From positions 1 through 35,425 of the forward strand of contig JACAEL010000021.1 in NCBI GenBank assembly GCA_013388835.1: a stretch of 35,425 nt of DNA. The letters run 5' to 3'. A model generated the notes under the pieces. The model was not told the DNA's origin. It searched no databases and was given only the letters and a program-made list of their open reading frames with translations. Positions 5,630 to 21,120 of this stretch are shown in pieces. The stretch's first letter is position 1. The number at the start of each line of letters is the position of its first letter. The position numbers and the translations under genes were made by a program. This stretch comes from Candidatus Thorarchaeota archaeon (GTDB lineage Archaea > Asgardarchaeota > Thorarchaeia > Thorarchaeales > Thorarchaeaceae).

Positions 5630-6376
5630 ATGAAACTGGCAAAGAAGGTCTTTGAAACGGCACTCGGCGAGGGTAGGACCTTCGTGTTGGAACACGAGGC
5701 AAAAGACATACTGAAGTCCTACGGAATACCCACACCACCATATGCCACGGCCACTAGTGCAGACGAGGCGGTCAAGAAGTCAAGAGAGATAGGCTTCCCG
5801 GTGGTATTGAAGATTCTCTCTAAAGACATCATGCACAAGTCAGATGCAGGGGGCGTGAAAGTAAACCTCAAGGACGAAGCCTCTGTCAGGAGTGCCTACG
5901 ATGAGATTATGGCAAACGCTCGCAAGTACGGAGAGAGCAAGGGTGTCACAGTGGACCTGAGCCGAGGTGTATTGGTCTCGAGCTTTGCGGATGCGGGCAC
6001 CGAGGTGATTGTGGGTGTGACTACAGACCCCCAGTTTGGTCACGCCATAATGTTCGGGCTGGGAGGAATATTCGTTGAAGTGCTCAAGGATGTCACGTTC
6101 AGATTGATTCCATTGAGTGAAAACGATGCTAGGGAAATGATTCGTGAGATAAAGGCAGCGAAGATACTAGATGGGGTGAGAGGCCAGCCACCAAGGGACG
6201 TCGATGCTCTGGTAAAGACAATCATGGGAGTTTCGAAGATGGTACAGGAGAACCCTGAGATACGAGAGCTCGACTGCAACCCGTTATTCCTGTACGAACG
6301 TGGAAAGGGAGCTGTTGTCGTTGATGCCAGGATAATCATCCAGGGACCGAAACCAGACACAGCATCTAGCCACTGA
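5630..6376 (+). CDS. acdB: ADP-forming acetyl/acyl-CoA synthetase, beta subunit
   Basis: A 248-residue ATP-grasp subunit that partners the upstream alpha subunit in an ADP-forming acyl-CoA synthetase. It carries the nucleotide-binding ATP-grasp fold: the EHEAKDILKSYGIPTP start, VVLKILSKDIMHKSDAGGV (nucleotide/phosphate loop, residues about 59-77), GLGGIFVEVLKDV, and the metal-binding ELDCNPLF near the C-terminus. It is slightly longer than the usual ~230 residues because of its C-terminal end. Alpha and beta are separate genes here, as in Pyrococcus, rather than fused. The last 11 nt overlap the convergent 399-codon gene. Confidence 0.93.
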   Translation: MKLAKKVFETALGEGRTFVLEHEAKDILKSYGIPTPPYATATSADEAVKKSREIGFPVVLKILSKDIMHKSDAGGVKVNLKDEASVRSAYDEIMANARKYGESKGVTVDLSRGVLVSSFADAGTEVIVGVTTDPQFGHAIMFGLGGIFVEVLKDVTFRLIPLSENDAREMIREIKAAKILDGVRGQPPRDVDALVKTIMGVSKMVQENPEIRELDCNPLFLYERGKGAVVVDARIIIQGPKPDTASSH

Positions 6377-7565
6377 TGACCTGTGAGAGTAGTATCAGAC
6401 CGCGCTTCAGGTCAGACTCTTGCAACCCATCTTCAGACGTGGGCTGCTTAGTGCCAGCAGAAACCAGTAGCAGCAGAGATAGAACTCTAGGCACCAGATG
6501 AGGATTCCTCACTAGGAAGTCCCTGTTGCCAGCAGTTTCTAAGATTAGCCCTTCAATCTTGCGCCCAATCGAACGCGTCTGCTCAATCATCTCCGGAGAG
6601 GGTCGTATCCTTCTGTAGAGGGACGGGATTGAATGCTCGTATTGGAGGGTCTCGGCGGGTACGCCCGCAAGCTGCAGCATCGATAGGGCTCCGACAATGA
6701 AGGACTCGTATTCATCTGAACCAATCTCGCTTAGACCGACCCTGGCAGCCTGAATCTGAACAAGGATCCTGAGTGAGTTGGTCAGCAGATGTCGAAACAC
6801 AGACTGAAGAGAGGATATGTCTGAGAGAAATTCCTCAGCATATACAGACTCCAGCCTCGCAGCTGCAGAGGAGTCTAGATTCCTGTCGAAGCCGGGGGCG
6901 AGCTGGACCCGAGCAGCTCGAATCAGGCTGGTGGAGGTGCCAATCTCCCTTACTGCAGTGAGACTGCCGAAGTCCTCCGGCATCATGTGAAAGAGGAGAA
7001 TTCGGACGAGGTCGTAAGCGGTTTCAAAATCGGTCTCGGTAGTCATGGTACGTCCCTGTCCACGACAAGACAGTCCTGAGAGAAGCATCCACGATGATGC
7101 GATGTCATCGCGGAGGCGACCTGCGTCACCAGAGAGTGCAAAGTTGTGCTCAGCAAGAAAACTGGAGAGGCGATCAGTGGCTGCACGAACTCGGTCGAGA
7201 GTCGCCGCGCCCAGCTCTATGGACGAAATCGAAGAGAGGAAATCACGGGCGTCCTGAGAAGCTGGACGCAGCACAAAGCCGGGGTTCTCGCGATTTGGAG
7301 TCCACCACTTGCTCGTTGATGCGAAGTAATCGAGGACATCGATTGCTTGCGTCAAATCTGAGGGGGAGCTAGTAGTACGATTGTTGAGATAGGCGATTAG
7401 TCGTGTCAAGAGCGCAAGGAACCTTGAGAGATGGTCAGAGAGTCTTCGGCCTGCGTAAGAAGAAGAGGAGAACTTGGAAACTAGGTGTCCAATCTGACTT
7501 GAAGCCTCACTATGGAAACGCGTGTTCAGTATTCCTCGGTAAACTTCAATGGGAGTCCTTGTCAA
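6366..7565 (-). CDS. All-helical protein with four repeats, unknown function
   Basis: A 399-residue protein not recognised as a known family. By eye it contains four copies of a helical unit, at about residues 42-82, 150-192, 248-299 and 352-397. Each has a hydrophobic helix, a short polar loop, then an S-x-S/T-D-(L/F/Y)-x-x-x-(I/Y/L)-x-x-(L/V)-type helix (PSDLTQAIDVL, ETDFETAYDLV, SDEYESFIVGAL, ESDLKRGLILL). The unit resembles the C-terminal lid helices of MCM-type AAA+ proteins, but no P-loop is present. The only start available is TTG, with GAGGAGG 10 nt upstream. A strong TATA element lies further upstream. It may be lineage-specific. Confidence 0.7.
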   Translation of the reverse strand: MTRTPIEVYRGILNTRFHSEASSQIGHLVSKFSSSSYAGRRLSDHLSRFLALLTRLIAYLNNRTTSSPSDLTQAIDVLDYFASTSKWWTPNRENPGFVLRPASQDARDFLSSISSIELGAATLDRVRAATDRLSSFLAEHNFALSGDAGRLRDDIASSWMLLSGLSCRGQGRTMTTETDFETAYDLVRILLFHMMPEDFGSLTAVREIGTSTSLIRAARVQLAPGFDRNLDSSAAARLESVYAEEFLSDISSLQSVFRHLLTNSLRILVQIQAARVGLSEIGSDEYESFIVGALSMLQLAGVPAETLQYEHSIPSLYRRIRPSPEMIEQTRSIGRKIEGLILETAGNRDFLVRNPHLVPRVLSLLLLVSAGTKQPTSEDGLQESDLKRGLILLSQVISG

Positions 7566-7676: not shown

Positions 7677-8456
7677 TCATTTACCGTAACGACGCGAACG
7701 CTGTTCATATGATCGTATTGCCCGCCAGATGTCAATTCTACGTACAGCAGGCCAGTAGACCTGAGCGAAGTAGAGCTCCGAGTAGGCAGACTGCCACAGT
7801 AGGAATCCGGATAGTCGCTCTTCCCCAGAGGTGCGTATGATCAAGTCGGGGTCAGGGACACCGTTAGTGTAGAGATGCTTCTCTATCAACCTCTCATCAA
7901 TGTCTGAAGGAGAAAGTGTTCCCGAGGATATCTTCGATGCAATAGCCTTCACAGCATCCACAAGCTCAGCACGTCCCGAGTAACCAATGGCCACATTGAG
8001 AATATGGTCCGAGTACTTGGCGGTCTCCTCCTCTGCGGCTGCGATGGCCGCTTGTACCTCTTCGGGAAGCAGGTCCACCCGACCTATCGCATGGATTCGC
8101 ACTTTGTGCCGATGCACATCTGGGTTACCAACCACTTCACTGAACTTCTCTTTGGCCAAGGCCATTATCTCCCTGACTTCATCGGGTTGGCGCTGAAAGT
8201 TCTCGATGGAGAAGGCGTATAGTGTGCAGACTTTCACACCAGCCTCCCAGAGTATCTTGAGGACATCCATGACCTTCTTTGCACCCTTGTGGTGACCAAA
8301 CCAAGGGACCTTCAGTCCGTGCTCTCTCGCATAACGACGGTTACCATCTAGTATTATGCCCACATGGCGAGGAGCCTTGTCTTTTGAGAGCTGTCTGAAC
8401 AGAAAGTACTCGTAGAGCCGATAGACCGGGCCGCTAAGGTTCAATCTACTGCACAC
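7677..8456 (-). CDS. uppS: Cis-prenyltransferase (undecaprenyl/polyprenyl diphosphate synthase)
   Basis: A 259-residue cis-prenyltransferase that extends an allylic diphosphate with isopentenyl diphosphate to make the long polyprenyl carrier used for membrane-bound glycan assembly. In archaea the product supplies dolichol-type carriers. Diagnostic motifs are GIILDGNRRYA with the catalytic Asp at residue 37, TLYAFSIENF, and the DLIIRTSGEERLSGFLLWQS signature with the following YSELYF. The GTG start has no obvious ribosome site. A CCTATTAGG element is centred 27 nt upstream, which suggests a leaderless transcript. It follows the roadblock gene by 55 nt and is probably transcribed separately. 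Confidence 0.95.
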   Translation of the reverse strand: MCSRLNLSGPVYRLYEYFLFRQLSKDKAPRHVGIILDGNRRYAREHGLKVPWFGHHKGAKKVMDVLKILWEAGVKVCTLYAFSIENFQRQPDEVREIMALAKEKFSEVVGNPDVHRHKVRIHAIGRVDLLPEEVQAAIAAAEEETAKYSDHILNVAIGYSGRAELVDAVKAIASKISSGTLSPSDIDERLIEKHLYTNGVPDPDLIIRTSGEERLSGFLLWQSAYSELYFAQVYWPAVRRIDIWRAIRSYEQRSRRYGK

Positions 8457-8511: not shown

Positions 8512-8883
8512 CTAGATCATCTTGGCGACCTTGTCAGCCGCACGTTTCATGTCAAGGAAGACAAGTCCCAGTTTCGCGTTGCTCGAAGTGGAAACAGTGA
8601 GGCAGGCATTCATCCCAGCTTGGACAACCAGCACCCAACCATCTTGACCCTTGACATTGACCTGCTCCAGATTGCCCTTTCCCAGCTCTACCGCAGCCTT
8701 CTCTCCAAGCGTAAGCATCGCCGCAGTGATTGCGGCCAGCTTCGCCTCGTCAACATCCGCTGGCAGAGCTGAAACAATCGGGAGACCTTCGACACTCACT
8801 ATGGCACAAGCCTCAATCTCCGGAATGCTGCCCTGCAGCTCATTCAGGACTCCTTCAAGGGTTTCTTCACGGGACTCGCTCAT
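8512..8883 (-). CDS. Roadblock/LC7 domain protein (MglB-like)
   Basis: A 123-residue single-domain roadblock/LC7 protein. Its pattern is an N-terminal helix (ETLEGVLNELQ), strand-turn-strand IEACAIVSVEGLPIVSALP, a long central helix rich in Ala (about residues 42-66), then strands around VLVVQAG and ACLTVST. Family members dimerise and act as partners or activators of Ras-like GTPases (MglB for MglA, Ragulator subunits for Rag). It lies 20 nt downstream of the GTPase gene in the same direction, so the two products are likely made together and may bind each other. GGTGA precedes the ATG by 9-10 nt. Confidence 0.88.
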   Translation of the reverse strand: MSESREETLEGVLNELQGSIPEIEACAIVSVEGLPIVSALPADVDEAKLAAITAAMLTLGEKAAVELGKGNLEQVNVKGQDGWVLVVQAGMNACLTVSTSSNAKLGLVFLDMKRAADKVAKMI

Positions 8884-8903
8884 CGACTACACTCACCCGA
8901 GTA

Positions 8904-9467
8904 CTACTTGTACATCCTTTTGAGGATTACCTCTCTTGCTATGGCTTGAAACGCTCTCTTAACTCCTACGCCCTGAACCGCAATAGTCTCGTAGATTGGA
9001 ACATTGCCTCCAAGACCAAGCAGATCCAGCATCTCGTCACGCGACATCCTGTTCGGCAGGTCACGTTTGTTAAGCATTACGACAATGGGAATCTCTCGTC
9101 CCAACACATCGCCAAGAAACAGCTTCAGCTCCTCGAAGCTCTCAACATTCTCATCTCTCTGGTCAGGAGAGGAGTCTGCAACAAACACTATGCCATCTGT
9201 ACCCTGCAACACAACCTTCCGCTGATGGCGGTGGCGCTTCTGACCGGCAACAGTGAACACATCGAAGAGCACTCGGCCACCCGCAGACATGGGAACGTAG
9301 TCAAAGAACAGGGTCCGATTTGTCTCGTCTTCGATTGCGGTGAACTCACCCTTCTGCAGACCCTCGACCTTTCCATAGAGCCACCTCAGTGCAGTGGTCT
9401 TGCCTCCTAGACTGGGTCCGTAGAACACCAGCTTCAAGTGCACTCTGCCTTGTGAGTCTTTTCTCAT
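8904..9467 (-). CDS. MglA-like small GTPase
   Basis: A 187-residue Ras-superfamily GTPase of the MglA type. The P-loop is GPSLGGKT (residues 17-24). TLFFDYVPM corresponds to the MglA switch I region. G3 is TVAGQ, where MglA has TVPGQ, followed by the MglA-like run DGIVFVADS. G4 is LNKRDLP and G5 is around IAVQG. There is no C-terminal lipidation cysteine. The ATG at 9467 is preferred because GGTGA lies 8 nt upstream; that GGTGA overlaps a GTG four codons earlier which would otherwise be the start. The adjacent roadblock genes encode the class of partner that regulates MglA and Rag GTPases. Confidence 0.9.
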   Translation of the reverse strand: MRKDSQGRVHLKLVFYGPSLGGKTTALRWLYGKVEGLQKGEFTAIEDETNRTLFFDYVPMSAGGRVLFDVFTVAGQKRHRHQRKVVLQGTDGIVFVADSSPDQRDENVESFEELKLFLGDVLGREIPIVVMLNKRDLPNRMSRDEMLDLLGLGGNVPIYETIAVQGVGVKRAFQAIAREVILKRMYK

Positions 9468-9667
9468 TTTGCAGTTCACCGTTTCTTTGGCGAGCGGTCT
9501 GAGTTGGCGGGTGTAACTGCCCTCAAATAGTTAACTCTTTCTGGTCCTAATCACCAAAGCGCGCCAAACGCGGCACTGAATCCAGATGGTCCGGTCCACC
9601 TAGAAAAGCGTTGGAAACGTACGCTCACTGGGCACCGCTCCTGTGAGTAGTCTTGAGGGCCATGAGA

Positions 9668-10144
9668 CTAGACACGTTCGAGCTCTGCCAGGGCCGACTT
9701 GAGGTCTTCCTCATCGAGTTCCTTGTCTTTTGTCGAGCCATCGGGTTCGACGGCAAGAAACTTCTCAAGCTCTTCAGCAAGCTGCACGCCGTACTTCTTC
9801 ATGACAAGACGTACCAGACCAATGTTGACCTCAGGCTCTGATACGACGCAGAGCACACCCTTTCCGCATGCAGAGGCGAAGATCTTGCCTTCTGAGAACT
9901 CGGATGTGACTATCTCTAGGTCACCTATCTGAAGATTCTTCCCCTGTTCCTCGCTAGCACAGAAAACCGCACTTGCAATCGCCCCTATGCTGTCAAGGTC
10001 AACCGGGAAGTATGTGAGCTTGCTCACGTTTGCTATGGTGAGACCAGTCTTGTCGACAAGAATCACCTTCCTGCAGCCTTTCTCCTGACGGATGATCTCT
10101 GTTAGGATTCTATCGAATGCCTTTGGATCGGTCACTTTGTTCAC
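9668..10144 (-). CDS. Roadblock/LC7-like protein with acidic C-terminal tail
   Basis: A 158-residue protein with a roadblock-type fold pattern: helix FDRILTEIIRQE, strands KVILVDKTGLTIAN, a central helix (about 50-66, IGAIASAVFCASEEQG), and strands around GDLEIVTSEF and KIFASACG. A C-terminal helix and an acidic tail (DKELDEEDLKSALAELE) follow. It is longer than the neighbouring roadblocks because of that tail. The GTG start overlaps the stop of the upstream roadblock gene in the sequence GTGA, so the two are translationally coupled and may form a heterodimer. A specific partner cannot be read from sequence. Confidence 0.82.
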   Translation of the reverse strand: MNKVTDPKAFDRILTEIIRQEKGCRKVILVDKTGLTIANVSKLTYFPVDLDSIGAIASAVFCASEEQGKNLQIGDLEIVTSEFSEGKIFASACGKGVLCVVSEPEVNIGLVRLVMKKYGVQLAEELEKFLAVEPDGSTKDKELDEEDLKSALAELERV

Positions 10145-10482
10145 CTCTTGAGGACCACGAGTATGAGGCCCTCCTTGACATCTGGAGCGATGTTAATCTG
10201 ACCATTGGATGTGTCTAACGTGAGAAAAGACAGACTCCCCTCTCTCAGTTCTCGGACGGCATCGAGTGCCTTTCCGACCAGAGCAGTCGTTATAGCAGCG
10301 ATGGTTTCAGTTCTGTCGACGTCAAGGTCGCTGAACAAGGGGAAGCCTTCCATATTCGTGACTACCACACCCCGGACTCCTTCTTGGGTCCGCAATTCGG
10401 CGAGTATGGCTTCGAGCTTCTCCTGGCTAATAAACTGAAGTCCCTGCTTTGTTGGGTTCTGCCTTAGTAAGTCGTACGCCAC
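10141..10482 (-). CDS. Roadblock/LC7 domain protein
   Basis: A 113-residue roadblock/LC7 protein. Helix KLEAILAELRTQEG is followed by VRGVVVTNMEGFPLFSDL (strand-turn-strand), the helix ETIAAITTALVGKALDAV, and strands FLTLDTSNGQINIAPD and GLILVVLK. It is the first gene of a pair whose second member overlaps it by 4 nt. The start is GTG. A possible TATA element lies only about 13 nt upstream, which is too close for this start, so the promoter is unresolved. A GC-rich hairpin separates the gene from the upstream Sec23/24-like gene. Confidence 0.85.
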   Translation of the reverse strand: MAYDLLRQNPTKQGLQFISQEKLEAILAELRTQEGVRGVVVTNMEGFPLFSDLDVDRTETIAAITTALVGKALDAVRELREGSLSFLTLDTSNGQINIAPDVKEGLILVVLKR

Positions 10483-10572
10483 GCAAATGGTATTTTAGAC
10501 TTGTGGCAATGTGCTATCCAAGAGCAGCATCTTTTGCGCATTTGTGACCGAGTGTCACATGAAGTGGAGGTG

Positions 10573-10589
10573 GGCGGCCACTGGCCGCC
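10573..10589 (-). terminator. GC-rich hairpin after the Sec23/24-like gene
   Basis: GGCGGCC and GGCCGCC form a perfect 7-bp stem with a 3-nt loop, 25 nt beyond the stop at 10614. A second, weaker hairpin (TGTGAC/GTCACA, 10543-10559) lies further along. No T-tract follows, so termination is only a suggestion. RNA processing or mRNA-end stability are alternatives. Confidence 0.35.
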
Positions 10590-10613
10590 TCTCTGGTCTC
10601 TGCAGATTGAGAA

Positions 10614-12275
10614 CTACTCATCCTCTTTCTCATCGAAGAGCTCCTTGGAACTGCGTTTCATCTGCTTGAAGCCCCTTGTGAAGGCCTCGTCAGCTGCAGC
10701 ACAGGGAGCGCCACCTTGGGCAGGAGCAGCCGCCATCTTCGACTCCATCTCTTGCAGATTAGCCTCTTCAGAAGCCAGAGCGTCATCGGCACGTTTCATT
10801 CGGGCTTGTACCGCTTTCGGCGCAGCCTTTGTCTTCTTTGCCAAGGCCGCACGGAAGCCAGCGATGCGATCCGCACCAGCGGCCCTCTTGCCTCCGAAAG
10901 CGTCTTCACCCGCCTTCTGTGTGACGAAAGTCGCACTCATTGTGGGGTCGAGAGTGGCGACGAGGTCTCGCTCATCGCTTGTGACGCGCAGATTGGTGCT
11001 CACTGCACGGACCCTTCGTGCACCCTCTTCATCAGTATATGTGACTTGGACCTGGACTGGGACTTGCGCGGACCTTATCTCTGACTCAGGTTCCACCTCA
11101 ACATACAGCTCGTGATCTTCACCGACTGCTCCAATCCGTCCCGACCCAGTCTTGGTTATCTCCTCGATTGCGGCTCTGGAAACACCTGATGCGTCTTTCA
11201 CTCTTACCCCCTTGGGGGTCAGGAGCCGAATCTCAACATCCCTGCCCAGCAACGAAGCACCCGCAAGCTCGGAGAGGCTCCTGTCAAGCTCATTGGGAGT
11301 GACATAATACATCTGACCTCCTGTGGCCTCGGGCAAAAGGCCGAGCGTCTTCAGCTCCATACCTGCTCCCGAAGCAATACCGACTACATCGAATGCAGTT
11401 CCCAGTTCTCTGAACATCGTCCCGAGTGTCGCGTAGTAGCTGCCTGCAGGAGTCACCTGATATCCCTCAAGGGCGCCAATTCCCTCATTGGCAAGCCCAT
11501 CGGTGAGAAGCACCACCCTGGCAATGTTCCGATGCTTCGCTATCACGTACGCCACCGCAACAGCGGGACCCAACGCGGTCCCACCCATCTCACGAAGACT
11601 ACTCACATGACGCTTGAGACCACTCAAGTTCGGACCAACCTTGATGAGTCTGACTCGGTCTAGCAGTCGCTTAGTTGCCTCCATAATCTGATCGAGGTTG
11701 GCAAATGTCTCACATGGTACTTCAACGCGTTCGCCCGTTTCGAGATTGCGAACTGCAACCGAGCTCTCAAACTCAACAAGCCCGAACAGGGTTTCCGGAC
11801 TGTTTGCTGCAAGACTCTCAATGGATGTTGTCAGGCTCCGCTTGACTGCAGCCAGGTTGGCACCCGCCATCGAACCGGAAACATCTATGACTGCAAGGAA
11901 GGACCCGCCAGCGGGGGCTACTTGCCCGCGGGAGGTCGTCTTCTCAGGCGGGGGCTGGACTACGAATTCCGTTTCATTTCCAGCGATGACAATCTCGCCC
12001 TCAATGACGTTGAGGGTCCCGCAGAAGGGACAGACGAAGTGCTTACCTACCTTGGGGTCATGTTGAATCTGGTCAGCGCTCATCAGGAACCCATTGCACT
12101 TGTGGCATGCTATCGGTTTCCCTACAATCTTGTGGGTTTCTCGCGCGAGGTCTCGGAACTCCACGCGGAGAACATAAGGAATGTCACTCATCACCTTGCG
12201 CGAGGCTGGAAAGGCCTCTGAACTGCTCTTTAGTATGGGCATGGGAATTGTCGCTCCATCGGATGACTCAGTCAC
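10614..12275 (-). CDS. Sec23/Sec24-like protein: Zn finger plus VWA trunk
   Basis: A 553-residue protein with the domain order of the COPII inner-coat proteins Sec23/Sec24. A four-Cys zinc finger (C57, C60, C82, C85) is followed by a von Willebrand A/trunk-like domain (about 125-325), a beta-rich segment (about 345-450) and a Lys/Ala/Glu-rich helical tail. The metal site of the VWA domain looks intact: DVSGS (D131, S133, S135), T233 in MGGTALGP and D259 in LLTDG. Eukaryotic Sec23/24 have largely lost it. Sec23/24-like proteins have been reported in Asgard genomes. No gelsolin-like domain is visible. The start is uncertain: a TATA-like element at 12291-12300 fits the ATG at 12242 (residue 12) better than the GTG at 12275. 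A plain Zn-finger VWA protein is the alternative reading. Confidence 0.75.
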   Translation of the reverse strand: MTESSDGATIPMPILKSSSEAFPASRKVMSDIPYVLRVEFRDLARETHKIVGKPIACHKCNGFLMSADQIQHDPKVGKHFVCPFCGTLNVIEGEIVIAGNETEFVVQPPPEKTTSRGQVAPAGGSFLAVIDVSGSMAGANLAAVKRSLTTSIESLAANSPETLFGLVEFESSVAVRNLETGERVEVPCETFANLDQIMEATKRLLDRVRLIKVGPNLSGLKRHVSSLREMGGTALGPAVAVAYVIAKHRNIARVVLLTDGLANEGIGALEGYQVTPAGSYYATLGTMFRELGTAFDVVGIASGAGMELKTLGLLPEATGGQMYYVTPNELDRSLSELAGASLLGRDVEIRLLTPKGVRVKDASGVSRAAIEEITKTGSGRIGAVGEDHELYVEVEPESEIRSAQVPVQVQVTYTDEEGARRVRAVSTNLRVTSDERDLVATLDPTMSATFVTQKAGEDAFGGKRAAGADRIAGFRAALAKKTKAAPKAVQARMKRADDALASEEANLQEMESKMAAAPAQGGAPCAAADEAFTRGFKQMKRSSKELFDEKEDE

Positions 12276-12290
12276 ACAGTCCCCGCATAC

Positions 12291-12300
12291 GGTATTAAGA
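12291..12300 (-). promoter_or_regulatory. TATA-like element for the Sec23/24-like gene
   Basis: TCTTAATACC on the - strand lies about 54 nt before the ATG at 12242 and 21 nt before the GTG at 12275. It belongs to a divergent promoter region shared with the roadblock gene on the other strand. Confidence 0.4.
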
Positions 12301-12344
12301 GATTCTACTCTGTCTTCTTCAACTCAATCGCACAAGAGGAGAAG

Positions 12345-12352
12345 ATATATAC
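12345..12352 (+). promoter_or_regulatory. TATA element for the divergent roadblock gene
   Basis: ATATATAC, 60 nt upstream of the ATG at 12411, is a good TATA box. It would leave a leader of about 35 nt that contains the ribosome site GGAGG at 12397-12401. Confidence 0.5.
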
Positions 12353-12410
12353 CAATCGTCCAAGACTCTGTTGCGAAGATGCTGGAGGACAGCATCGGAG
12401 GCCAATACGA

Positions 12411-12776
12411 ATGGTCGACAAGTCAAAGATTGAGGCAATCGTTGCAGAGACAATGGGCGCTAACCCTGACATACAAGGTATGATAGTCTGTGATGCATCG
12501 GGCAAGGTGCTGTTCGGTCATACAATCACTGGAGGCATCAACCACTCAGAGGTCGCAAGCCTGTCTGTGAAGATTGCTGCAATTTCTGCTCAGCTTGTAG
12601 GTGGCATTGACAAGGGAGGCCTCAAGGAGGTCGACATAACAGCAGACCAGGGACTTGTGATGATACTTGGCGACGTCAAGATGGTGCTTGCTGCAATCTC
12701 AGGCGAGGCTGCCAGAGAGTCCATGGGGCTCATTCGCATGGCATTGAGAAGAGCACTCGTAAACATGGTGGCCTAA
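12411..12776 (+). CDS. Roadblock/LC7 domain protein
   Basis: A 121-residue protein with the roadblock/LC7 pattern. An N-terminal helix (KIEAIVAETMGAN) precedes IQGMIVCDASGKVLFGHT (strand-turn-strand), a central helix around SLSVKIAAISAQLVGG, strands LKEVDITADQGLVMILGD and KMVLAAIS, and a C-terminal helix. GGAGG 9 nt before the ATG fixes the start. It is the fourth roadblock gene within 4.3 kb and the only one on the + strand. It is divergent from the Sec23/24-like gene, so both are probably controlled from the same 135-bp region. Confidence 0.85.
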   Translation: MVDKSKIEAIVAETMGANPDIQGMIVCDASGKVLFGHTITGGINHSEVASLSVKIAAISAQLVGGIDKGGLKEVDITADQGLVMILGDVKMVLAAISGEAARESMGLIRMALRRALVNMVA

Positions 12777-12877: not shown

Positions 12878-12956
12878 TAGGAGCCAGTATCTTCCCCATA
12901 ATGCCGCAAGACACGCCAGCCGCTTGTCGTAGCGCAGCTTGAAGGATGATGGTGCC

Positions 12957-15900
12957 TTGGTCTACATAGAGAAGCTTGTATGCAAGGGCTTCAAGTCGTT
13001 CGGACGAGACACTGTAACCATAAAGCTAGACCCCGGGTTTACTTGCATTGTCGGCCCAAACGGGGCGGGCAAGTCCAATGTCATCGACGCGATACTCTTC
13101 GTACTTGGGCAGCTCAGTGCGAAGACGCTACGCGCGACTGTGTTTTCAGACCTTCTCTACTCGCCCCCAAAACCAGACATGCCTCCGAAAGCCAAGTCCG
13201 CTGTGGTTGAGATTCACTTCAACAACAGGGACAGAAGACTCCAAGTGGACACAGACAAGGTGGTAGTAGAGAGAGAACTCGACGATACTGGGAAGTCAGT
13301 GTGCAGGGTCAACGGGAAGATAGTGACACGCCTGCAGGTGTTGGATCTCCTCGGCAGCATAGGTGTCGACCCCAATGGCTACAATCTGGTCCTACAGGGG
13401 GAGATAGCTCAGATGGTCAAAGTCAGTCCAAATGACCGGAGGAAGCTGATAGAGGAGATTGCAGGTATATCGGCGTATGACGAGCAGAAGGAGAGAGCTC
13501 TCAAGAAGCTCTCGGAAAGCGAGGGGAATCTGGCAAGAGTTGAAACCCAGCTGCAGGAGCGACGACGACAGCTTGAGAAACTGGAAACGGAACGCTCTGA
13601 CGCCCTCAGATATCAAGGCGTGAAACAAAAGATTCAGTCGATTAGGATTGACAGTCTTGCCTGGACCTTACTCAAATCGACAAACAGGATTGCCACAATA
13701 GACCATACACTTGCAGAGAAGGCCCAAGAAATCGAGCGTACATCACAGGAGTTTGCACACGTTGAAGAGAGCATTGTTTCGACCGAACATGAGATAGAAG
13801 CGATAGACCAAGAGATTGAACAGATAACCGGTGGAAACTCGGCCCGGGTTTCAGAACATTATGGAGTACTGTCCGCTGCGGTGGCCCACGTCAGGGAATC
13901 ACTCGAGAGAGCAAAGGAAACGCTTCGCCGGAGTGTTGAGGAGCGGACAAGCCTTGAGCAGGAGTTGAAGTCGACTAGAAATCAGATTGAAGAGTCATCG
14001 AAGGCGAGGCATAGTAAGGAGCAGGAACTGGTAGACCTTGACAGGGAAATCGAGAAGACCGTAATGGAAATGGGCCGGTTAGAAGAGAGCCTCCAGAGAG
14101 AGCAGACCACGTTCTACGAAACTCAGCAGAGACTCCAAGACCTAAACAACCAGGCAATTGCACTAGACGAAGGGATATCTGAAGTAAGGTCGGCCATGAG
14201 GAGTGACGAGAAGGAACTCGGACTGGCATATGAGGAATTGCGCGACTCGGAGGAGAGCCTGAAAAGGACTGGCGAAGAAATGGCTTTGTTGGCACAGATG
14301 CTGCCTGCCAAGAGGGAGGAACTCAGTACAAGCGAAACACTAGAAGCGGCAAAACGCTCTGAAGTTGAAGACATCTCCAAGCGCTTGATTACAGTGAATT
14401 CGCAAGTGGACGAGTCCGTCCGTCTTGTGAATGTCACGAGGGAAGAGCTGATCAAGCTACAAGCTAGACAGGAAGCGCTCAAGGAGGCGGAGGAGGCCTT
14501 TCTCAAGCGAGAGAAGGCGGTCGCGAGAGTCTTGGAGATGCGTGACACGGGAGAGGTCCAAGGCATTCACGGAACAGTGGCCGAGCTGGGCAAAATAGAC
14601 CCCGAGTACTCGGTAGCTCTAGAGATTGCTGGTGGCAATAGGCTAACCTACATCGTGGTCGATGACGAACAGGTGGCGACAGAGTGCATCAGGGTCCTGA
14701 AAAAGGAGAAGGTTGGTCGTGCGTCGTTCATTCCATTGACGAGAATCAAATCAAAGTCACCCGGTCATGTCCCTGATGATGAGAGAGTGATTGGCTATGC
14801 AATGGACCTCGTGAGCTTCGAACCAAGATATCTTCCGGCCTTTGAGTTCGTGTTTGTGGACACCATAGTCACGGAGGACTTTGAAACTGCCAAGCGCATG
14901 GGGTTCAAGGGGTGGCGTGCTGTCTCAATTGACGGGGACCTTGTAGAGAGGTCAGGACTAATCACCGGTGGGCACTACCATAGAGGAAAGTCGGGCATCT
15001 CGTTGCAGGTTCAGGACAACAGCTCTGAGATTATGGAGAAGCTGAAGGGATTGGAGCAGATACTCTCTGACTTGAGGACACAACAGACAGAGCTCAGGAA
15101 TAGAGAGAAGCAGACGGACAGAGAGATTCAACAGTTATCCAAGAAGATATACCAATTGAGAATCGAGACCAAGGGTCTCGAGGACCAGTTAGAGGAGAAG
15201 CGGGCAAGACAAGAGAAACTCACTCAAAGAATCTCACAACTCAGACTGACCATTGAAGAACTCGAGTCGCAGATTGCGACACTCAGAGAGAGAGACACGG
15301 AGATGTCTGGTCGTCGCGAATCTGTCCGCAGCCAACGAGACGAGATGAGAGAGGCTCTTGCAAAGTCCGCGGCATCCAGATTGACTCAAGATATCAAGGA
15401 TTTGCAGGAAGTTCTTGCTTTCAGTAGAAAGAAGCGGGAAACCTATCACAGTGAGCTCACTCGACTACAGGTCGGGGTGGAACAGAGACTGATACCCAAG
15501 GCTCAAGAACTGGAGAGCCGGATTCAGACCGTCGAGTCAGTCATTCCGAACATGCAGGCGGAAGTGGAGAAGCAGACCGTGGAACTCTCTCAGAAAGAGG
15601 CGGAATTGGAGGAACTGAGAACTCAGAGAGAAAGAATAGAGGAAGCGGTCAAAGACAGACGTGTAAGACAAATCCAGCTGAAGGAGGACCTGAGGAACCT
15701 GAGGCTCAGGTTGGAGGAACTCAGAGAGGCTCAGACCAGCAACGAGAAGGCGGTGTACAGACTTCAGACCGAAAGGTCAAGAATTGAGGCGGACATAGTT
15801 GGTATCAGGGCTGAACTCGCAGCAGTCACCGACCCGGATGAGGAGTTGACGAAGCGTATGTCTCAGAGGGAACTGAGCCATAGTGAGATAGAACAACTCC

Positions 15901-16547
15901 AAGAGAAGATTCGAGAACTAGAGAGAGAACTGGAGGCAATGGGTGCAGTGAACCTCAAGTCACTGACCGACTATGATGCTGAGAGAGAAAGGTATGACGA
16001 GATAGTGGAAAGGAAGGTCAAGCTTGAGGAGGAGCACAAGGAGATCCTCAGTTTCATGGAGGAGCTCGAGAGAGAGAAGACACGCAAGTTCCTGGTCGTC
16101 TACAATGAGATTGCAGACAACTTCGCCAAGGTCTTTGCCAAACTCTCACCGGGTGGAGAAGCCAGTCTAATGCTGGAGAACCCCGAGCATCCACTCATGG
16201 GCGGGATAACCGTGCGTTCCAAACCCGCAGGGAAGGAGCTCGTCACTCTGGACGCAATGAGCGGGGGCGAGAAGACTCTCACAGGACTCGCGCTCATATT
16301 CGCCATCCAGATGCATAGTCCAGCAAGCTTCTACGTCTTTGACGAGATTGACGCGGCCCTTGACGAGGTGAATGCGCATAACGTTGCCAATCTCATATCA
16401 GAGATGTCGAAGTCGTCACAATTCATCGTTGTTTCACTCAGAGACACAACGGTTGCAAAGGCGGACTTCCTTGTGGGAGTCACCAATCAGGACGGACTGA
16501 GCAGAATAGTTGACGTCGACCTTCAGGAGGTGTCACAGACGTCATGA
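12957..16547 (+). CDS. smc: Chromosome segregation ATPase SMC
   Basis: A full-length SMC protein of about 1196 residues, the ATP-driven ring protein that organises and separates chromosomes with ScpA and ScpB. The N-terminal head starts VYIEKLVCKGFKSFG and carries Walker A GPNGAGKS (about residues 33-40). Long coiled coils flank a hinge around 525-680 (GIHGTVAELGKIDPEY through ITGGHYHRG). The C-terminal head has the ABC signature MSGGEK (about 1100) and Walker B FYVFDEIDAALDE (about 1127-1139). The TTG at 12957 is preferred over the TTG at 12939 because GGATGAT lies 6 nt upstream and homologues start at this point. The stop overlaps the scpA start by 4 nt (ATGA). Confidence 0.96.
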   Translation: MVYIEKLVCKGFKSFGRDTVTIKLDPGFTCIVGPNGAGKSNVIDAILFVLGQLSAKTLRATVFSDLLYSPPKPDMPPKAKSAVVEIHFNNRDRRLQVDTDKVVVERELDDTGKSVCRVNGKIVTRLQVLDLLGSIGVDPNGYNLVLQGEIAQMVKVSPNDRRKLIEEIAGISAYDEQKERALKKLSESEGNLARVETQLQERRRQLEKLETERSDALRYQGVKQKIQSIRIDSLAWTLLKSTNRIATIDHTLAEKAQEIERTSQEFAHVEESIVSTEHEIEAIDQEIEQITGGNSARVSEHYGVLSAAVAHVRESLERAKETLRRSVEERTSLEQELKSTRNQIEESSKARHSKEQELVDLDREIEKTVMEMGRLEESLQREQTTFYETQQRLQDLNNQAIALDEGISEVRSAMRSDEKELGLAYEELRDSEESLKRTGEEMALLAQMLPAKREELSTSETLEAAKRSEVEDISKRLITVNSQVDESVRLVNVTREELIKLQARQEALKEAEEAFLKREKAVARVLEMRDTGEVQGIHGTVAELGKIDPEYSVALEIAGGNRLTYIVVDDEQVATECIRVLKKEKVGRASFIPLTRIKSKSPGHVPDDERVIGYAMDLVSFEPRYLPAFEFVFVDTIVTEDFETAKRMGFKGWRAVSIDGDLVERSGLITGGHYHRGKSGISLQVQDNSSEIMEKLKGLEQILSDLRTQQTELRNREKQTDREIQQLSKKIYQLRIETKGLEDQLEEKRARQEKLTQRISQLRLTIEELESQIATLRERDTEMSGRRESVRSQRDEMREALAKSAASRLTQDIKDLQEVLAFSRKKRETYHSELTRLQVGVEQRLIPKAQELESRIQTVESVIPNMQAEVEKQTVELSQKEAELEELRTQRERIEEAVKDRRVRQIQLKEDLRNLRLRLEELREAQTSNEKAVYRLQTERSRIEADIVGIRAELAAVTDPDEELTKRMSQRELSHSEIEQLQEKIRELERELEAMGAVNLKSLTDYDAERERYDEIVERKVKLEEEHKEILSFMEELEREKTRKFLVVYNEIADNFAKVFAKLSPGGEASLMLENPEHPLMGGITVRSKPAGKELVTLDAMSGGEKTLTGLALIFAIQMHSPASFYVFDEIDAALDEVNAHNVANLISEMSKSSQFIVVSLRDTTVAKADFLVGVTNQDGLSRIVDVDLQEVSQTS

Positions 16548-17263
16548 CGGACAATGACACACCATTCTGGGCCGAACCACCCTACATTCTACTGACAGAT
16601 GTACTTCAGTTGGACAAGATTGACCCTTGGAATGTGGATGTGGGAAAGCTGGTCGCCGGTTTTCTGCAGGAGATGCGACGACTTGGGGACATCGACTTCA
16701 GAGTGTCAGGAAACGCGTTGTACTCTGCGTCAGTAATCTTCATGAAAAAGACGAAGGACCTCGTGGACCTTGGAGTGCTGCCGCCGGAGGAGAGAGAAGA
16801 AGAGGAGGAGGATCTAGTCATCCCCATGATTAGGCCACCGTTCAGACTCACCAATCGACGAGTCACACTGCAAGAGCTGTTGGTAGCAATGGATCGCGTC
16901 CTCTCAAAGGGCGTTAGAGAGAGACAGATTCCGACCGCTAGACGAAGGTCAAAGACGTTTGTCACGCCTCTCTCGTTTGAGATGGAATCGGAACGTACGA
17001 ATGTTGAAGAGAACATCGCAGAGGTGTACGCGGACCTAAGGCGAATTCTGAGTACTGGTGATGTGATCAAGTTCACTGATGTCTTGATGAACAACACACG
17101 GCGCGAAATCGTACGGGTCTTCTTTGCCATCCTTCATCTCTATGCTCGGGCGTTGATAGACATCTGGATGGATGAGGATGATGTAATATGGATCAAGATG
17201 TCGGAACCACCCGAGGATTATGGACGGAAAGTCCCCACTGACCAGCCATCCCTTGAAAGATAG
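16544..17263 (+). CDS. scpA: Segregation and condensation protein ScpA (kleisin)
   Basis: A 239-residue kleisin that bridges the SMC heads. The N-terminal region has the ScpA pattern LLTDVLQLDKIDPWNVDVGKL (about residues 16-36), then helices around FRVSGNALYSASVIFMKK, a glutamate-rich linker (EEREEEEEDL) and the conserved helical part VTLQELLVAMDRVL. The C-terminal winged helix covers about 160-230 (DVIKFTDVLMNN, REIVRVFFAILHLYAR). Its ATG overlaps the smc stop as ATGA, which indicates coupled translation. The stop codon abuts scpB. Confidence 0.93.
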   Translation: MTDNDTPFWAEPPYILLTDVLQLDKIDPWNVDVGKLVAGFLQEMRRLGDIDFRVSGNALYSASVIFMKKTKDLVDLGVLPPEEREEEEEDLVIPMIRPPFRLTNRRVTLQELLVAMDRVLSKGVRERQIPTARRRSKTFVTPLSFEMESERTNVEENIAEVYADLRRILSTGDVIKFTDVLMNNTRREIVRVFFAILHLYARALIDIWMDEDDVIWIKMSEPPEDYGRKVPTDQPSLER

Positions 17264-17272
17264 GTGATATTT

Positions 17273-17824
17273 GTGAATGAAGACATGGTCACGCTTGAGG
17301 CAGCATTGTACGCTGCTGGTCGACCAATGACACTGCAGGAACTGGCAGAGATTGTCGGCAAGGCAGAGTCAACAGTACAGAAACTGCTGAAAGACCTTGG
17401 CTTCGAATACAATAAGAGAGGCGGTGCCCTAGAGGTAGTGGAGCTGCCGAGGGACAGATACGCAATGCAGCTAAGGCCTGAACTCACCCCTCGAGTAGCC
17501 AAACTCATCCCTGGGGGTCTTCTCTCGTACGCCACGCTTCAGACTCTGGTCTACATCGCGCTGAAACAACCGATACTGCAGTCAGACTTGGTGGCGGACC
17601 GTGGGACACATGTCTATGAGCATGTCAAGGAACTTGAGGAGAAGAAACTCATCGAGGCCACACCAGAAGGAAGGAGCAAGGTGTTATCCACAACTCAGCT
17701 GTTCGCGGACTACTTTGGTCTTGATACGGACATAATCAGAATGAAGGCCCAGCTGAAACACAAACTGAAGCAGATACTCGAAGAACAGAGCAACACTGAG
17801 AGTACTGTTCAGACGCAGCTCTAG
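17273..17824 (+). CDS. scpB: Segregation and condensation protein ScpB
   Basis: A ScpB protein of about 183 residues with two winged-helix units. The first covers about 5-80 (VTLEAALYAAGRPMTLQELA, STVQKLLKDLGFEYNKRG), and the second follows about 85-165 (LLSYATLQTLVYIALKQPIL, YEHVKELEEKKLIEATPEGR). ScpB dimers bind the kleisin ScpA in the condensin-like complex. The GTG at 17273 is chosen because AGGTGAT (17262-17268) lies directly upstream. A GTG at 17264 is inside that ribosome site, and ATG 17285 is another option. The ribosome site itself overlaps the scpA stop codon. The gene ends in a 4-nt convergent overlap with hypE. Confidence 0.92.
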   Translation: MNEDMVTLEAALYAAGRPMTLQELAEIVGKAESTVQKLLKDLGFEYNKRGGALEVVELPRDRYAMQLRPELTPRVAKLIPGGLLSYATLQTLVYIALKQPILQSDLVADRGTHVYEHVKELEEKKLIEATPEGRSKVLSTTQLFADYFGLDTDIIRMKAQLKHKLKQILEEQSNTESTVQTQL

Positions 17825-19406: not shown

Positions 19407-19997
19407 TCAGACAGGACCGAGTATGATTCCGTCCGGCAACTCATCCAGAAGTAGTCCTTCAGCCTCCGCCTTCTTCACTGCAGCTAGTGCTTTCGGGCCC
19501 CCAATGTTCTCAAGGGCTCCAGCTGCAGTCTGCCTGACGAACAGAGATGAATCGTGAAGGGACTCTATCAGAGATGGTATGGCACTGGGATCCTTCCGTT
19601 CACCCAATTGCACGGCAGCAAACAGTCGAACCATGTATCTGGGGTCCTTCAGACATGCTGTCAGAGCGCTTGTGGCATCTGAGTCTGGGAGGATTCCAAG
19701 TCGATCAATCGCATTCAGAACAACCTGTTGGTCCTCGCTCTTGATCTCTCTGAGAAGTTCGTCAACCATTGGAGAGGGTACTGCAGTCTTCGTCGTGGTC
19801 TTCTTACCCGAAGTTGTCTTTGCAGACGGGCTCCTCGTGGACTTGGTCTTGAGACTCGAGGACTTCTTCGTACCTGGTCGAGGCTCTTTCACATGCGCAG
19901 GCTTCGCGGGCGTTGACTTCTGGGCCTTCTTCGATGCCGTCGGGCGCGCCTCGGGCTTCGAATCAGGCGTGGCGGTCTTCTTCGTGGTCTTGGGCAT
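19407..19997 (-). CDS. HEAT-repeat protein with histone-H1-like basic tail
   Basis: A 196-residue protein in two parts. Residues 1 to about 75 are low-complexity and rich in Lys, Thr, Ser, Pro and Ala (MPKTTKKTATPDSK..., KKAQKSTPAKPA, SAKTTSGKKTTTK), much like the tail of histone H1. Residues about 78-196 are HEAT/PBS-lyase type helical repeats (VVLNAIDRLGIL, YMVRLFAAVQLGERKDPSAIPSLIESLHDSS, FVRQTAAGALENIGGP). HEAT repeats bind proteins; a tail like this often binds nucleic acid, so a DNA- or ribosome-associated adaptor is possible. The ATG at 19997 is chosen over 20030 because the TATA box would start transcription near 20022 and AGAGGTG lies 7 nt upstream. Confidence 0.75.
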   Translation of the reverse strand: MPKTTKKTATPDSKPEARPTASKKAQKSTPAKPAHVKEPRPGTKKSSSLKTKSTRSPSAKTTSGKKTTTKTAVPSPMVDELLREIKSEDQQVVLNAIDRLGILPDSDATSALTACLKDPRYMVRLFAAVQLGERKDPSAIPSLIESLHDSSLFVRQTAAGALENIGGPKALAAVKKAEAEGLLLDELPDGIILGPV

Positions 19998-20044
19998 GGA
20001 ACGCACCTCTGGCCAGAGTATTGCATACAAGACTCCCCCCGCAA

Positions 20045-20075: not shown

Positions 20076-20459
20076 CTAGTTTCCCACCTCCACCTCAATG
20101 TCGGTGATAACAAACTCCTTTCCGCCAGATATTGTTGTATGGCTGCCACCGCACCTCGAGCACTTCATGGGGGCAAAAATGGCAACCTGCGGCGGAAGTG
20201 AATAGTCCACTTTGCTCTCGCCCTCAAAACCGCACTCCTGACACTTCAAGCGCCCCTTGGTTCTCTTGATGTGAAGCTCAGCTCCCTCCATGATTGTATC
20301 CTTTGAGGCAATCTCGAAGTTGAACGCAAGCTGCTCTGGAACCAAGAACGTAAACTCACCGACTTCGATGTTCACCGCCTTTATCCTCTTGACCTGGTGT
20401 GCCTTGGCAGCGTCAAGAGCAGCCTCAACTATTGAGAGAGCAGCAGAGAACTCATGCAT
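20076..20459 (-). CDS. hypA: Hydrogenase nickel-insertion protein HypA
   Basis: A 127-residue HypA that delivers nickel to the NiFe-hydrogenase active site together with HypB. The N-terminus MHEFSAALSIV carries the Ni-binding Met1-His2 pair. The zinc site is C73-x2-C76 and C100-x2-C103. The helix-strand pattern KAVNIEVGEFTFLVPEQLAFNFE is typical of the family. Length is normal. A TATA-like palindrome lies 32 nt upstream. It is on the same strand as hypE but separated from it by the S8e and HEAT genes, so the two hyp genes are not one operon. Confidence 0.95.
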   Translation of the reverse strand: MHEFSAALSIVEAALDAAKAHQVKRIKAVNIEVGEFTFLVPEQLAFNFEIASKDTIMEGAELHIKRTKGRLKCQECGFEGESKVDYSLPPQVAIFAPMKCSRCGGSHTTISGGKEFVITDIEVEVGN

Positions 20460-20486
20460 TTTGCTCTCGACACGTTGCCTGTTTGT

Positions 20487-20496
20487 AACATATGTT
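20487..20496. promoter_or_regulatory. Palindromic TATA-like element upstream of hypA
   Basis: AACATATGTT is a perfect 10-bp palindrome centred 32 nt before the hypA ATG. It may be the hypA TATA box, an operator, or both. Confidence 0.35.
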
Positions 20497-20532
20497 GTTT
20501 TTGCTATGACCGCTAACGAATATACACCTAGG

Positions 20533-20540
20533 TTTTATTA
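20533..20540 (+). promoter_or_regulatory. TATA element for the winged-helix/Zn-ribbon gene
   Basis: TTTTATTA is centred 44 nt upstream of the ATG at 20581 and would give a leader of about 18 nt. It supports that start over earlier in-frame codons. Confidence 0.4.
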
Positions 20541-20580
20541 TGTGCCTCTGTGTAGAACTGGGCGAGAAGTCTTTACGGTG

Positions 20581-21120
20581 ATGAAACAGGTGAATGGCAT
20601 TAGCGACATTCGGCAGCTGGAGGCAGCAATCAGAGACCTCGAGTTTGATTACATGAGAGGGCTGGTGTCAGAAGAGGATTACAAGAAGAGAATGGCGGAC
20701 CTCAACACCCGGCTTGTCGCAGCTGGTGGGACGCCTAGGGAACTCCCATCCGCCCCCAAAGTGGTATCATCTCAGCTGCGCCCGACCAGACTCCTCGACA
20801 AGAAGACACTGGTTGATCCGGTGACTGCGGTCAGAAGGACTGTAGAGAGTATGCGCAGAATACCCATTGAGAGGATTGCACAGGAGGCAGGGGTGCCCAC
20901 ACACATCGCCAGCAAGGTCCTTGCCGACCTCTTGGATGGCAGAGAACTCTCAGGCAGACTTGACCATGATTCTGGGGACTTCATACTTGGGACCGGGACC
21001 GGTCCCGCCCCCAAGACCATCGCAGTGTGTCCATACTGCAGGTACGAACTCAAGCGGATTGCTGTCAAAGGGGAGACAATCACCTGCAGCATGTGTAGAG
21101 AGTCATTCGTTGTTGTATGA
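20581..21120 (+). CDS. Winged-helix protein with C-terminal Zn ribbon, unknown function
   Basis: A 179-residue protein with three parts. Residues 8-46 form a helical hairpin with a SHOCT-like pattern (LEFDYMRGLVSEEDYKKRM). Residues about 94-136 are a winged helix (IPIERIAQEAGVPTHIASKV, then GRELSGRLDHDSGDFI). Residues 150-172 are a zinc ribbon (C150, C153, C169, C172). The winged-helix ending G-x-L-x-G-x-x-D-x-x-x-G-x-x resembles the PCI domains of eukaryotic proteasome-lid and COP9 subunits as well as ordinary DNA-binding winged helices. I cannot name the family. The frame is open further upstream, but the ATG at 20581 lies correctly behind a TATA element. A transcription-related role is the simplest guess. 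Confidence 0.7.
   Translation: MKQVNGISDIRQLEAAIRDLEFDYMRGLVSEEDYKKRMADLNTRLVAAGGTPRELPSAPKVVSSQLRPTRLLDKKTLVDPVTAVRRTVESMRRIPIERIAQEAGVPTHIASKVLADLLDGRELSGRLDHDSGDFILGTGTGPAPKTIAVCPYCRYELKRIAVKGETITCSMCRESFVVV

Follow-up and report, generated by a model that had tools for sequence, protein, structure and literature searches.

Genes at the locus

We analyzed a window of 35,425 nucleotides from Candidatus Thorarchaeota archaeon (contig JACAEL010000021.1 of assembly GCA_013388835.1), in which a block of 4.3 kb encodes a small GTPase, four roadblock proteins (Rb1 to Rb4), and a protein resembling Sec23 and Sec24. An original prediction, made from the sequence alone, had read these six genes as a single membrane-associated machine controlled by the GTPase. 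Here, we find that the GTPase gene and the roadblock genes do form a unit, deeply conserved in Asgard archaea, while the Sec23/24-like gene is a Thorarchaeota-specific member of the locus. The best reading is a pan-Asgard MglA-type switch with a dedicated set of four roadblocks. The features of the region are as follows.

7677..8456, minus strand: UPPS, a cis-prenyltransferase (PF01255, 8e-78), last gene of the minus-strand run
8512..8883, minus strand: Rb1, roadblock protein of 123 amino acids (Robl_LC7, PF03259, 1e-16)
8904..9479, minus strand: MglA-type small GTPase (Pfam Arf/Ras; best match in the PDB is MglA, 8e-39)
9668..10144, minus strand: Rb2, MglB-like roadblock protein of 158 amino acids (Robl_LC7, 3e-10)
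9674..9712, minus strand: predicted C-terminal helix of Rb2, residues 145 to 157 (AlphaFold2 model)
10141..10482, minus strand: Rb3, short roadblock protein of the LC7 type, without a C-terminal helix (PF03259, 4e-15)
10614..12275, minus strand: Sec23/24-like protein (Sec23_trunk PF04811, 2e-9; Sec23_BS PF08033, 1e-6; zinc finger PF04810, 0.003)
11298..11903, minus strand: VWA/trunk domain of the Sec23/24-like protein, in which the MIDAS-type metal site is intact (D131xSGS, T233, D259)
12021..12107, minus strand: zinc-finger ligands of the Sec23/24-like protein, CxxC...CxxC (C57, C60, C82, C85)
12276..12410: divergent intergenic (promoter) region of 135 bp between both transcription units, from the gene coordinates
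12411..12776, plus strand: Rb4, divergent roadblock protein, first gene of the run that continues with SMC, ScpA, and ScpB
12939..16547, plus strand: SMC (PF02463/PF06470)
16544..17263, plus strand: ScpA (PF02616, 2e-10)
17264..17824, plus strand: ScpB (PF04079, 5e-34)

Gene calls and Pfam matches bear out the six predicted genes with their strands and coordinates, and no unrelated gene lies inside the block. The minus-strand order is Sec23/24-like, Rb3, Rb2, GTPase, Rb1, and UPPS, and Rb4 with SMC-ScpA-ScpB is divergent on the plus strand. Rb2 and Rb3 overlap by 4 bp, 20 bp separate Rb1 from the GTPase, and 188 bp separate the GTPase from Rb2. The predicted extent was incomplete, however, as the block runs straight into UPPS (55 bp from Rb1) and SMC-ScpA-ScpB (162 bp from Rb4), neighbors that, unlike the Sec23/24-like gene, are conserved also outside Thorarchaeota. 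UPPS makes the polyprenol/dolichol lipid carrier. The source genome has 12 Robl_LC7 matches, with Rb4 counted as a thirteenth, and finding four of about 13 roadblock genes within 4.3 kb of a 3.0-Mb genome has a chance expectation of about 8e-6.

Conservation of gene order in Asgard archaea

Relatives of the locus were collected by a contig profile search with the GTPase alignment, of which the best 80 of 361 relatives, all Asgard-type records, were considered, and by a whole-genome comparison in which Thorarchaeota are family f1. Family names rest on the named contigs of the profile search, and that of Odin rests on the identity of its Rb3 with a solved structure (7f8f). Loci with a GTPase 90 to 97% identical to that of the window are nearly all from Candidatus Thorarchaeota, including SMTZ1-45, AB_25, and two chromosome-scale metagenome-assembled genomes. 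UPPS-Rb1-GTPase-Rb2-Rb3-Rb4 occur in order at 22 of the 24 f1 cluster loci; the two shorter loci either meet a contig end (L049) or lack Rb1 and UPPS beside a transposase-like gene (L057). Scattered insertions of unrelated genes, named by eye as ClC-like channel, nucleoside kinase, and TnpB-type transposase genes, leave the order unbroken. The flanking radical SAM, CoA ligase, AIRS, and PCI genes are likewise syntenic in f1, however, and gene order is therefore weak evidence at the depth of Thorarchaeota. Of the proteins measured in the region, the GTPase has changed least within this group (median identity of 96%), followed by Rb2 (89%), Rb1 (87%), Rb3 (81%), UPPS (78%), SMC and ScpA (65% each), the Sec23/24-like protein (62%), and Rb4 (61%). 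Thus, the rates of the Sec23/24-like protein and Rb4 resemble those of SMC and ScpA.

Comparison beyond Thorarchaeota is more telling. Rb1-GTPase-Rb2-Rb3 with a divergent Rb4, and without the Sec23/24-like gene, is found in Baldr, the Odin-like AUK032, Hermod, Jord/Frey/Sigyn, Wukong (where Rb1 is inverted), f3, and f27. The same order, with no Rb4 detected at the locus, occurs in f2 (LC30), f13 (Jordarchaeum), and f24, and partial gene sets occur in Hod, Heimdallarchaeum, f5, f7, f8, and f10. The divergent arrangement of Rb3 and Rb4 persists in families without the Sec23/24-like gene. Every gap from Rb3 to UPPS is 15 to 27 bp in f3, where the cluster is by its spacing an operon, and the gaps are 22 to 68 bp in Baldr. 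UPPS adjoins Rb1 in at least eight families (Thor, Baldr, Hermod, LC30, Wukong, f3, f5, f24, and some f8 genomes), and SMC-ScpA-ScpB adjoins Rb4 in Thor, Hermod, and Jord/Frey/Sigyn. Order is thus retained across about 10 families, whereas the neighborhoods of Sec23/24-like genes outside Thorarchaeota, which served as a negative control, are scrambled and not common between families. Moreover, those Sec homologs have no GTPase or four-roadblock neighbors, only isolated weak matches with no conserved pattern. Conservation of gene order across Asgard genomes, which the original prediction had made one of its tests, therefore holds for the GTPase and the roadblocks and fails for the Sec23/24-like gene.

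In two f27 genomes, a multi-spanning protein is encoded between Rb3 and Rb4, the position taken by the Sec23/24-like gene in Thorarchaeota (L160:552-1658; L159:2876-3994). By eye it resembles dolichyl-phosphate mannosyltransferases, and a link to the product of UPPS is conceivable.

The GTPase and the roadblock proteins

By its sequence, the GTPase is MglA-type and not Sar1-type. The best solved relatives are MglA proteins (8e-39), compared with 7e-8 for Sar1b and 3e-12 for Arf4. The motifs are a P-loop of GPSLGGKT, a switch I NRT with Arg55 and Thr56, a G3 of TVAGQ in which Thr76 replaces Asp and is followed by Gln80, and a G4 of NKRD. Among 19 Asgard orthologs, T76, G79, N137, K138, and D140 are invariant, Q80 and R55 are nearly so, and the P-loop and Thr56 are likewise invariant or nearly invariant. 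These residues match the catalytic features described for MglA, namely the Thr in G3, the Gln, and the switch I Arg (PMC4316618), and Thr78 is given as an MglA hallmark in another report (PMC3000849). Comparison with homologs places the probable true start of the protein at Met5, encoded by the ATG at 9467. Relatives of the GTPase are found in 225 of the 228 genomes of the phylum, and its gene is coupled to that of an MglB-type roadblock, as Rb2 lies within a few hundred base pairs in Thor, Baldr, Hermod, Jord/Frey, Hod, and others.

The source genome encodes a second MglA-like GTPase, 39% identical to that of the window and 1.7 kb from a roadblock-containing gene (G000:C6:30796-31311 and 32974-33198; L297, L010), which is possibly another GTPase-roadblock couple. 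A further Thorarchaeota paralog, 48 to 55% identical, sits in a longer open reading frame of about 275 to 310 amino acids (G000:C71:45595-46137, L296; L291-L293), and in L291-L293 it has no neighbor among the four roadblock genes.

The four roadblocks are distinct orthologous subunits and not recent duplicates, as their profiles tell them apart without overlap: an intact protein assigned by its position exceeds 110 bits with its own profile and reaches no more than about 56 bits with any other. The Rb1 profile matches the MK-D1 "Roadblock3" structure (9jue, 2e-33). The solved chain 7f8f, identified by its length and name as Odin-RBLC7 of Tran et al. (PMC10933270), is 100% identical to Rb3 of the Odin LCB_4 cluster, and a roadblock of known structure thereby gains a genomic home. 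Rb4 of the window reaches only 0.049 for Robl_LC7 by itself, below the Pfam cutoff, but all 10 of the Rb4 orthologs scanned match that family (best, 5e-11), and the Rb4 profile matches the solved roadblock 9jq8 (1e-23).

How the GTPase might be regulated is suggested by Rb2. An Rb2 ortholog is found in 206 of the 228 genomes and in all 45 of good quality, with a mean column identity of 63%. The AlphaFold2 model (mean confidence score, pLDDT, of 79) has a roadblock fold, a low-confidence linker at 134 to 142, and a C-terminal helix at 145 to 157 in which L152 and L155 are conserved. Its nearest structures are MglB of the MglA-MglB complex (3t12, 2e-9) and Ragulator (6b9x_B, 4e-9), and the Rb2 profile matches MglB at 2e-6. 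In Myxococcus xanthus, nucleotide exchange is promoted by MglB helix 147-157, which occupies a pocket that MglA forms from alpha-5, beta-2, and a further element (PMC6785124). Because Rb2 has the same layout of linker and C-terminal helix, we infer that it would be the cognate GTPase-activating protein/guanine nucleotide exchange factor (GAP/GEF) of the GTPase. In the Jord/Frey-type genome G079, Rb2 is split into two overlapping frames (L134:8416-8914), by either a frameshift or an assembly error.

We consider it likely that an ancient Asgard cluster of one MglA-type GTPase switch and four dedicated roadblocks, with Rb2 as the MglB-like partner, is seen here in its Thorarchaeota form. Gene order, orthology, catalytic motifs, and folds are the observed part of this account; complex formation, GAP/GEF activity, and the process served may be envisaged as follows. 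A dimer of Rb2 would contact the switches of the GTPase and align the enzyme's own Arg55 and Gln80 for GTP hydrolysis, and the tethered C-terminal helix of Rb2 would bind the GTPase at its distal basic helix and promote nucleotide exchange. Rb1, Rb3, and Rb4 could form further homo- or heterodimers, a platform that places the switch on its target. The switch might govern a basic spatial process such as envelope growth, polarity, or division, a role suggested only by the UPPS and SMC neighbors. In a bolder version, which seems to us improbable, the Asgard ancestor already had such a complex, common to all Asgard archaea, that couples chromosome segregation by SMC-ScpA-ScpB to the synthesis of the envelope lipid carrier by UPPS, and its roadblocks gave rise to the roadblock platforms of eukaryotes (Ragulator, dynein light chains).

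Several observations weigh against a dedicated switch with four roadblocks. The GTPase stands apart from the roadblocks in f11, f15-f17, and f19-f23, as it does in Odin LCB_4 (f26), where Rb1-Rb2-Rb3 and the divergent Rb4 are together, the GTPase is elsewhere, and ScpB-ScpA-SMC begins about 1.8 kb from the roadblock group, with SMC within about 3 kb. Thus, linkage of the GTPase to the roadblocks is not obligatory. Rb2 and Rb4 orthologs are still present in most genomes of f11, f15-f17, and f19-f23. The Rb2 tail differs in f20, f19, and f21 (L274, L275, L278-L280, L287), ending in a conserved GLDLSDLD or NLDLSDLD and a few more residues and not in the LKxALxELE helix. Linkage to UPPS and SMC is gone in several lineages, and both links may reflect slow decay of gene order, as Thor and Hermod also share part of the order of CoA ligase, AIRS, and other genes. 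Finally, the genomes compared are mostly metagenome assembled, and some are incomplete.

The Sec23/24-like protein and alternative readings

Pfam matches, a structural model, and fold searches give the Sec23/24-like protein a zinc finger, a VWA/trunk domain, a beta-sandwich, and a helical C terminus. Most of the length of the model (mean pLDDT of 88) aligns with Sec24 and Sec23 (4e-30 to 2e-27), and ArnA/ArnB give a weaker match. The four zinc ligands and the VWA metal site are invariant in 27 Asgard homologs; in a HMMER alignment, the Sec24B counterpart of the first metal-site motif is DVSHN, compared with D131xSGS in the Thorarchaeota protein. As the model has no strand past residue 432, a gelsolin-like domain is predicted to be absent. 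The gelsolin domain of Sec23 carries the catalytic arginine.

The Sec23/24-like gene is on the strand of the GTPase gene and inside the block at 23 of the 24 Thorarchaeota Sec loci, even at loci with insertions elsewhere. Its retention through the diversification of Thorarchaeota raises the tentative possibility that the product is a Thorarchaeota-specific effector or scaffold that is recruited by the switch and has no GAP activity, which is compatible with the switch reading. Retention is weak evidence, however, because the flanks are syntenic across the same genomes, and in one Thorarchaeota genome (G184) the cluster persists without the Sec23/24-like gene. The gene was most likely moved out secondarily in G184, as the SMC tree nests this genome beside others that have the gene in the cluster. 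We conclude that the Sec23/24-like protein is a lineage-specific addition and at most an accessory or effector. In the chromosome-scale assembly G214, the junction of the Sec23/24-like gene and Rb4 occurs twice, partly truncated and about 330 kb apart (L295:5566-6782; G214:C1:1260719-1262757), either a rearrangement breakpoint or a misassembly.

Four roadblocks serving a small GTPase also recall Ragulator (LAMTOR1-5) and the Rag GTPases, and two roadblock heterodimers like LAMTOR2/3 and LAMTOR4/5 might hold the GTPase at a membrane. All 12 of the Rb2 proteins scanned match PF08923 (LAMTOR3 type; best, 1.6e-8) and all 13 of the Rb3 proteins match PF16672 (LAMTOR5; best, 1.9e-7), whereas the nine other roadblock proteins of the source genome do not match these profiles (best, 0.002). 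Of the four roadblocks in the cluster, only Rb2 and Rb3 gave LAMTOR matches. Moreover, Ragulator is as good a match to the Rb2 model as MglB is. The LAMTOR roadblocks are two short and two long, while the cluster has three long ones and a single short one. Its GTPase is of the MglA and not of the Rag type and carries no roadblock domain, and no LAMTOR1-like wrapper was recognized in a search limited to the cluster. Odin Rb3 is close to dynein roadblock light chains (1e-18), with no LAMTOR among the matches, and it crystallized as a homodimer (PMC10933270). Despite the genome-specific profile matches, the proximity to dynein light chains leads us to keep a Ragulator-like platform only as a rival, and we regard it as unlikely.

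The single membrane machine of the original prediction was taken here as a forerunner of COPII, with the Sec23/24-like protein acting on the GTPase in the way that Sec23 does on Sar1. The position of the gene in nearly all Thorarchaeota loci and the fold match to Sec23 and Sec24 speak for it. Linkage restricted to Thorarchaeota, its loss in G184 although the closest relatives have the gene inside, an MglA-type GTPase, a fast-evolving partner (62% median identity against 96% for the GTPase), and the predicted lack of a gelsolin domain all argue otherwise. We therefore rejected a proto-COPII as the main explanation and hold it to be very improbable, and the Thorarchaeota Sec23/24-like gene is weakened as evidence of such a GTPase couple at this locus. 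Least probable of all is that unrelated housekeeping genes are still together by chance or slow decay of order, as the partial synteny of CoA ligase, AIRS, and other genes between Thor and Hermod might allow, given the low chance expectation and an order held across about 10 families.

The switch with four roadblocks differs from each known system. It shares MglA motifs, a roadblock partner with a C-terminal helix, and coupled genes with bacterial MglA-MglB of M. xanthus and Thermus thermophilus (PMC4316618). The Asgard locus has four roadblock genes per GTPase, however, where that survey reports ratios of 1:1 and 1:2, and it is an Asgard-wide cluster with UPPS and SMC-ScpA-ScpB. In the alignment, the Asgard GTPase also lacks an insertion of a few residues found in bacterial MglA. 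Actinobacterial conservons (Cvn) likewise join a GTPase and an MglB-type roadblock in one operon, and the Rb1 profile matches the conservon protein CvnB5 (3leq, 1.5e-19), but the Asgard locus has four roadblocks and no histidine kinase or CvnC. Sec23/Sec24 of COPII and ArnA/ArnB, whose structure 8s05 is entitled "archaeal ortholog of the Sec23/24 core motif," have the domains of the Thorarchaeota protein; the latter differs in its predicted lack of a gelsolin domain, its intact VWA metal site, its single chain, and the absence of a Sar1-like GTPase paired with it here.

Tran et al. 2024 (PMC10933270) treated the same protein classes, Asgard small GTPases and roadblocks, and reported that GTPase genes of MK-D1 are generally not in operons with roadblock genes and that matching an Asgard GTPase to its GAP or GEF is difficult. 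The GTPase studied here, in contrast, is in operons with roadblocks in many other Asgard families. The view that such operons are uncommon, drawn from MK-D1, may be explained by the GTPase standing alone in f20, the largest family and presumably Lokiarchaeia, and in others. No such cluster was described in the literature searched, which was only part of the whole. For one GTPase found in nearly all Asgard genomes, the cluster identifies likely partners, among them an MglB-like candidate regulator that is strongly conserved.

Three other genes lie near the block. A 399-amino-acid protein with no Pfam match (6366-7565) adjoins UPPS only in Thorarchaeota loci and is fast evolving, with 44% median identity there. 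A HEAT-repeat protein (19407-20030) and a PCI-domain protein (20290-21120; 1.9e-5, above the cutoff) are kept in Thorarchaeota synteny. The PCI domain is typical of eukaryotic complexes.

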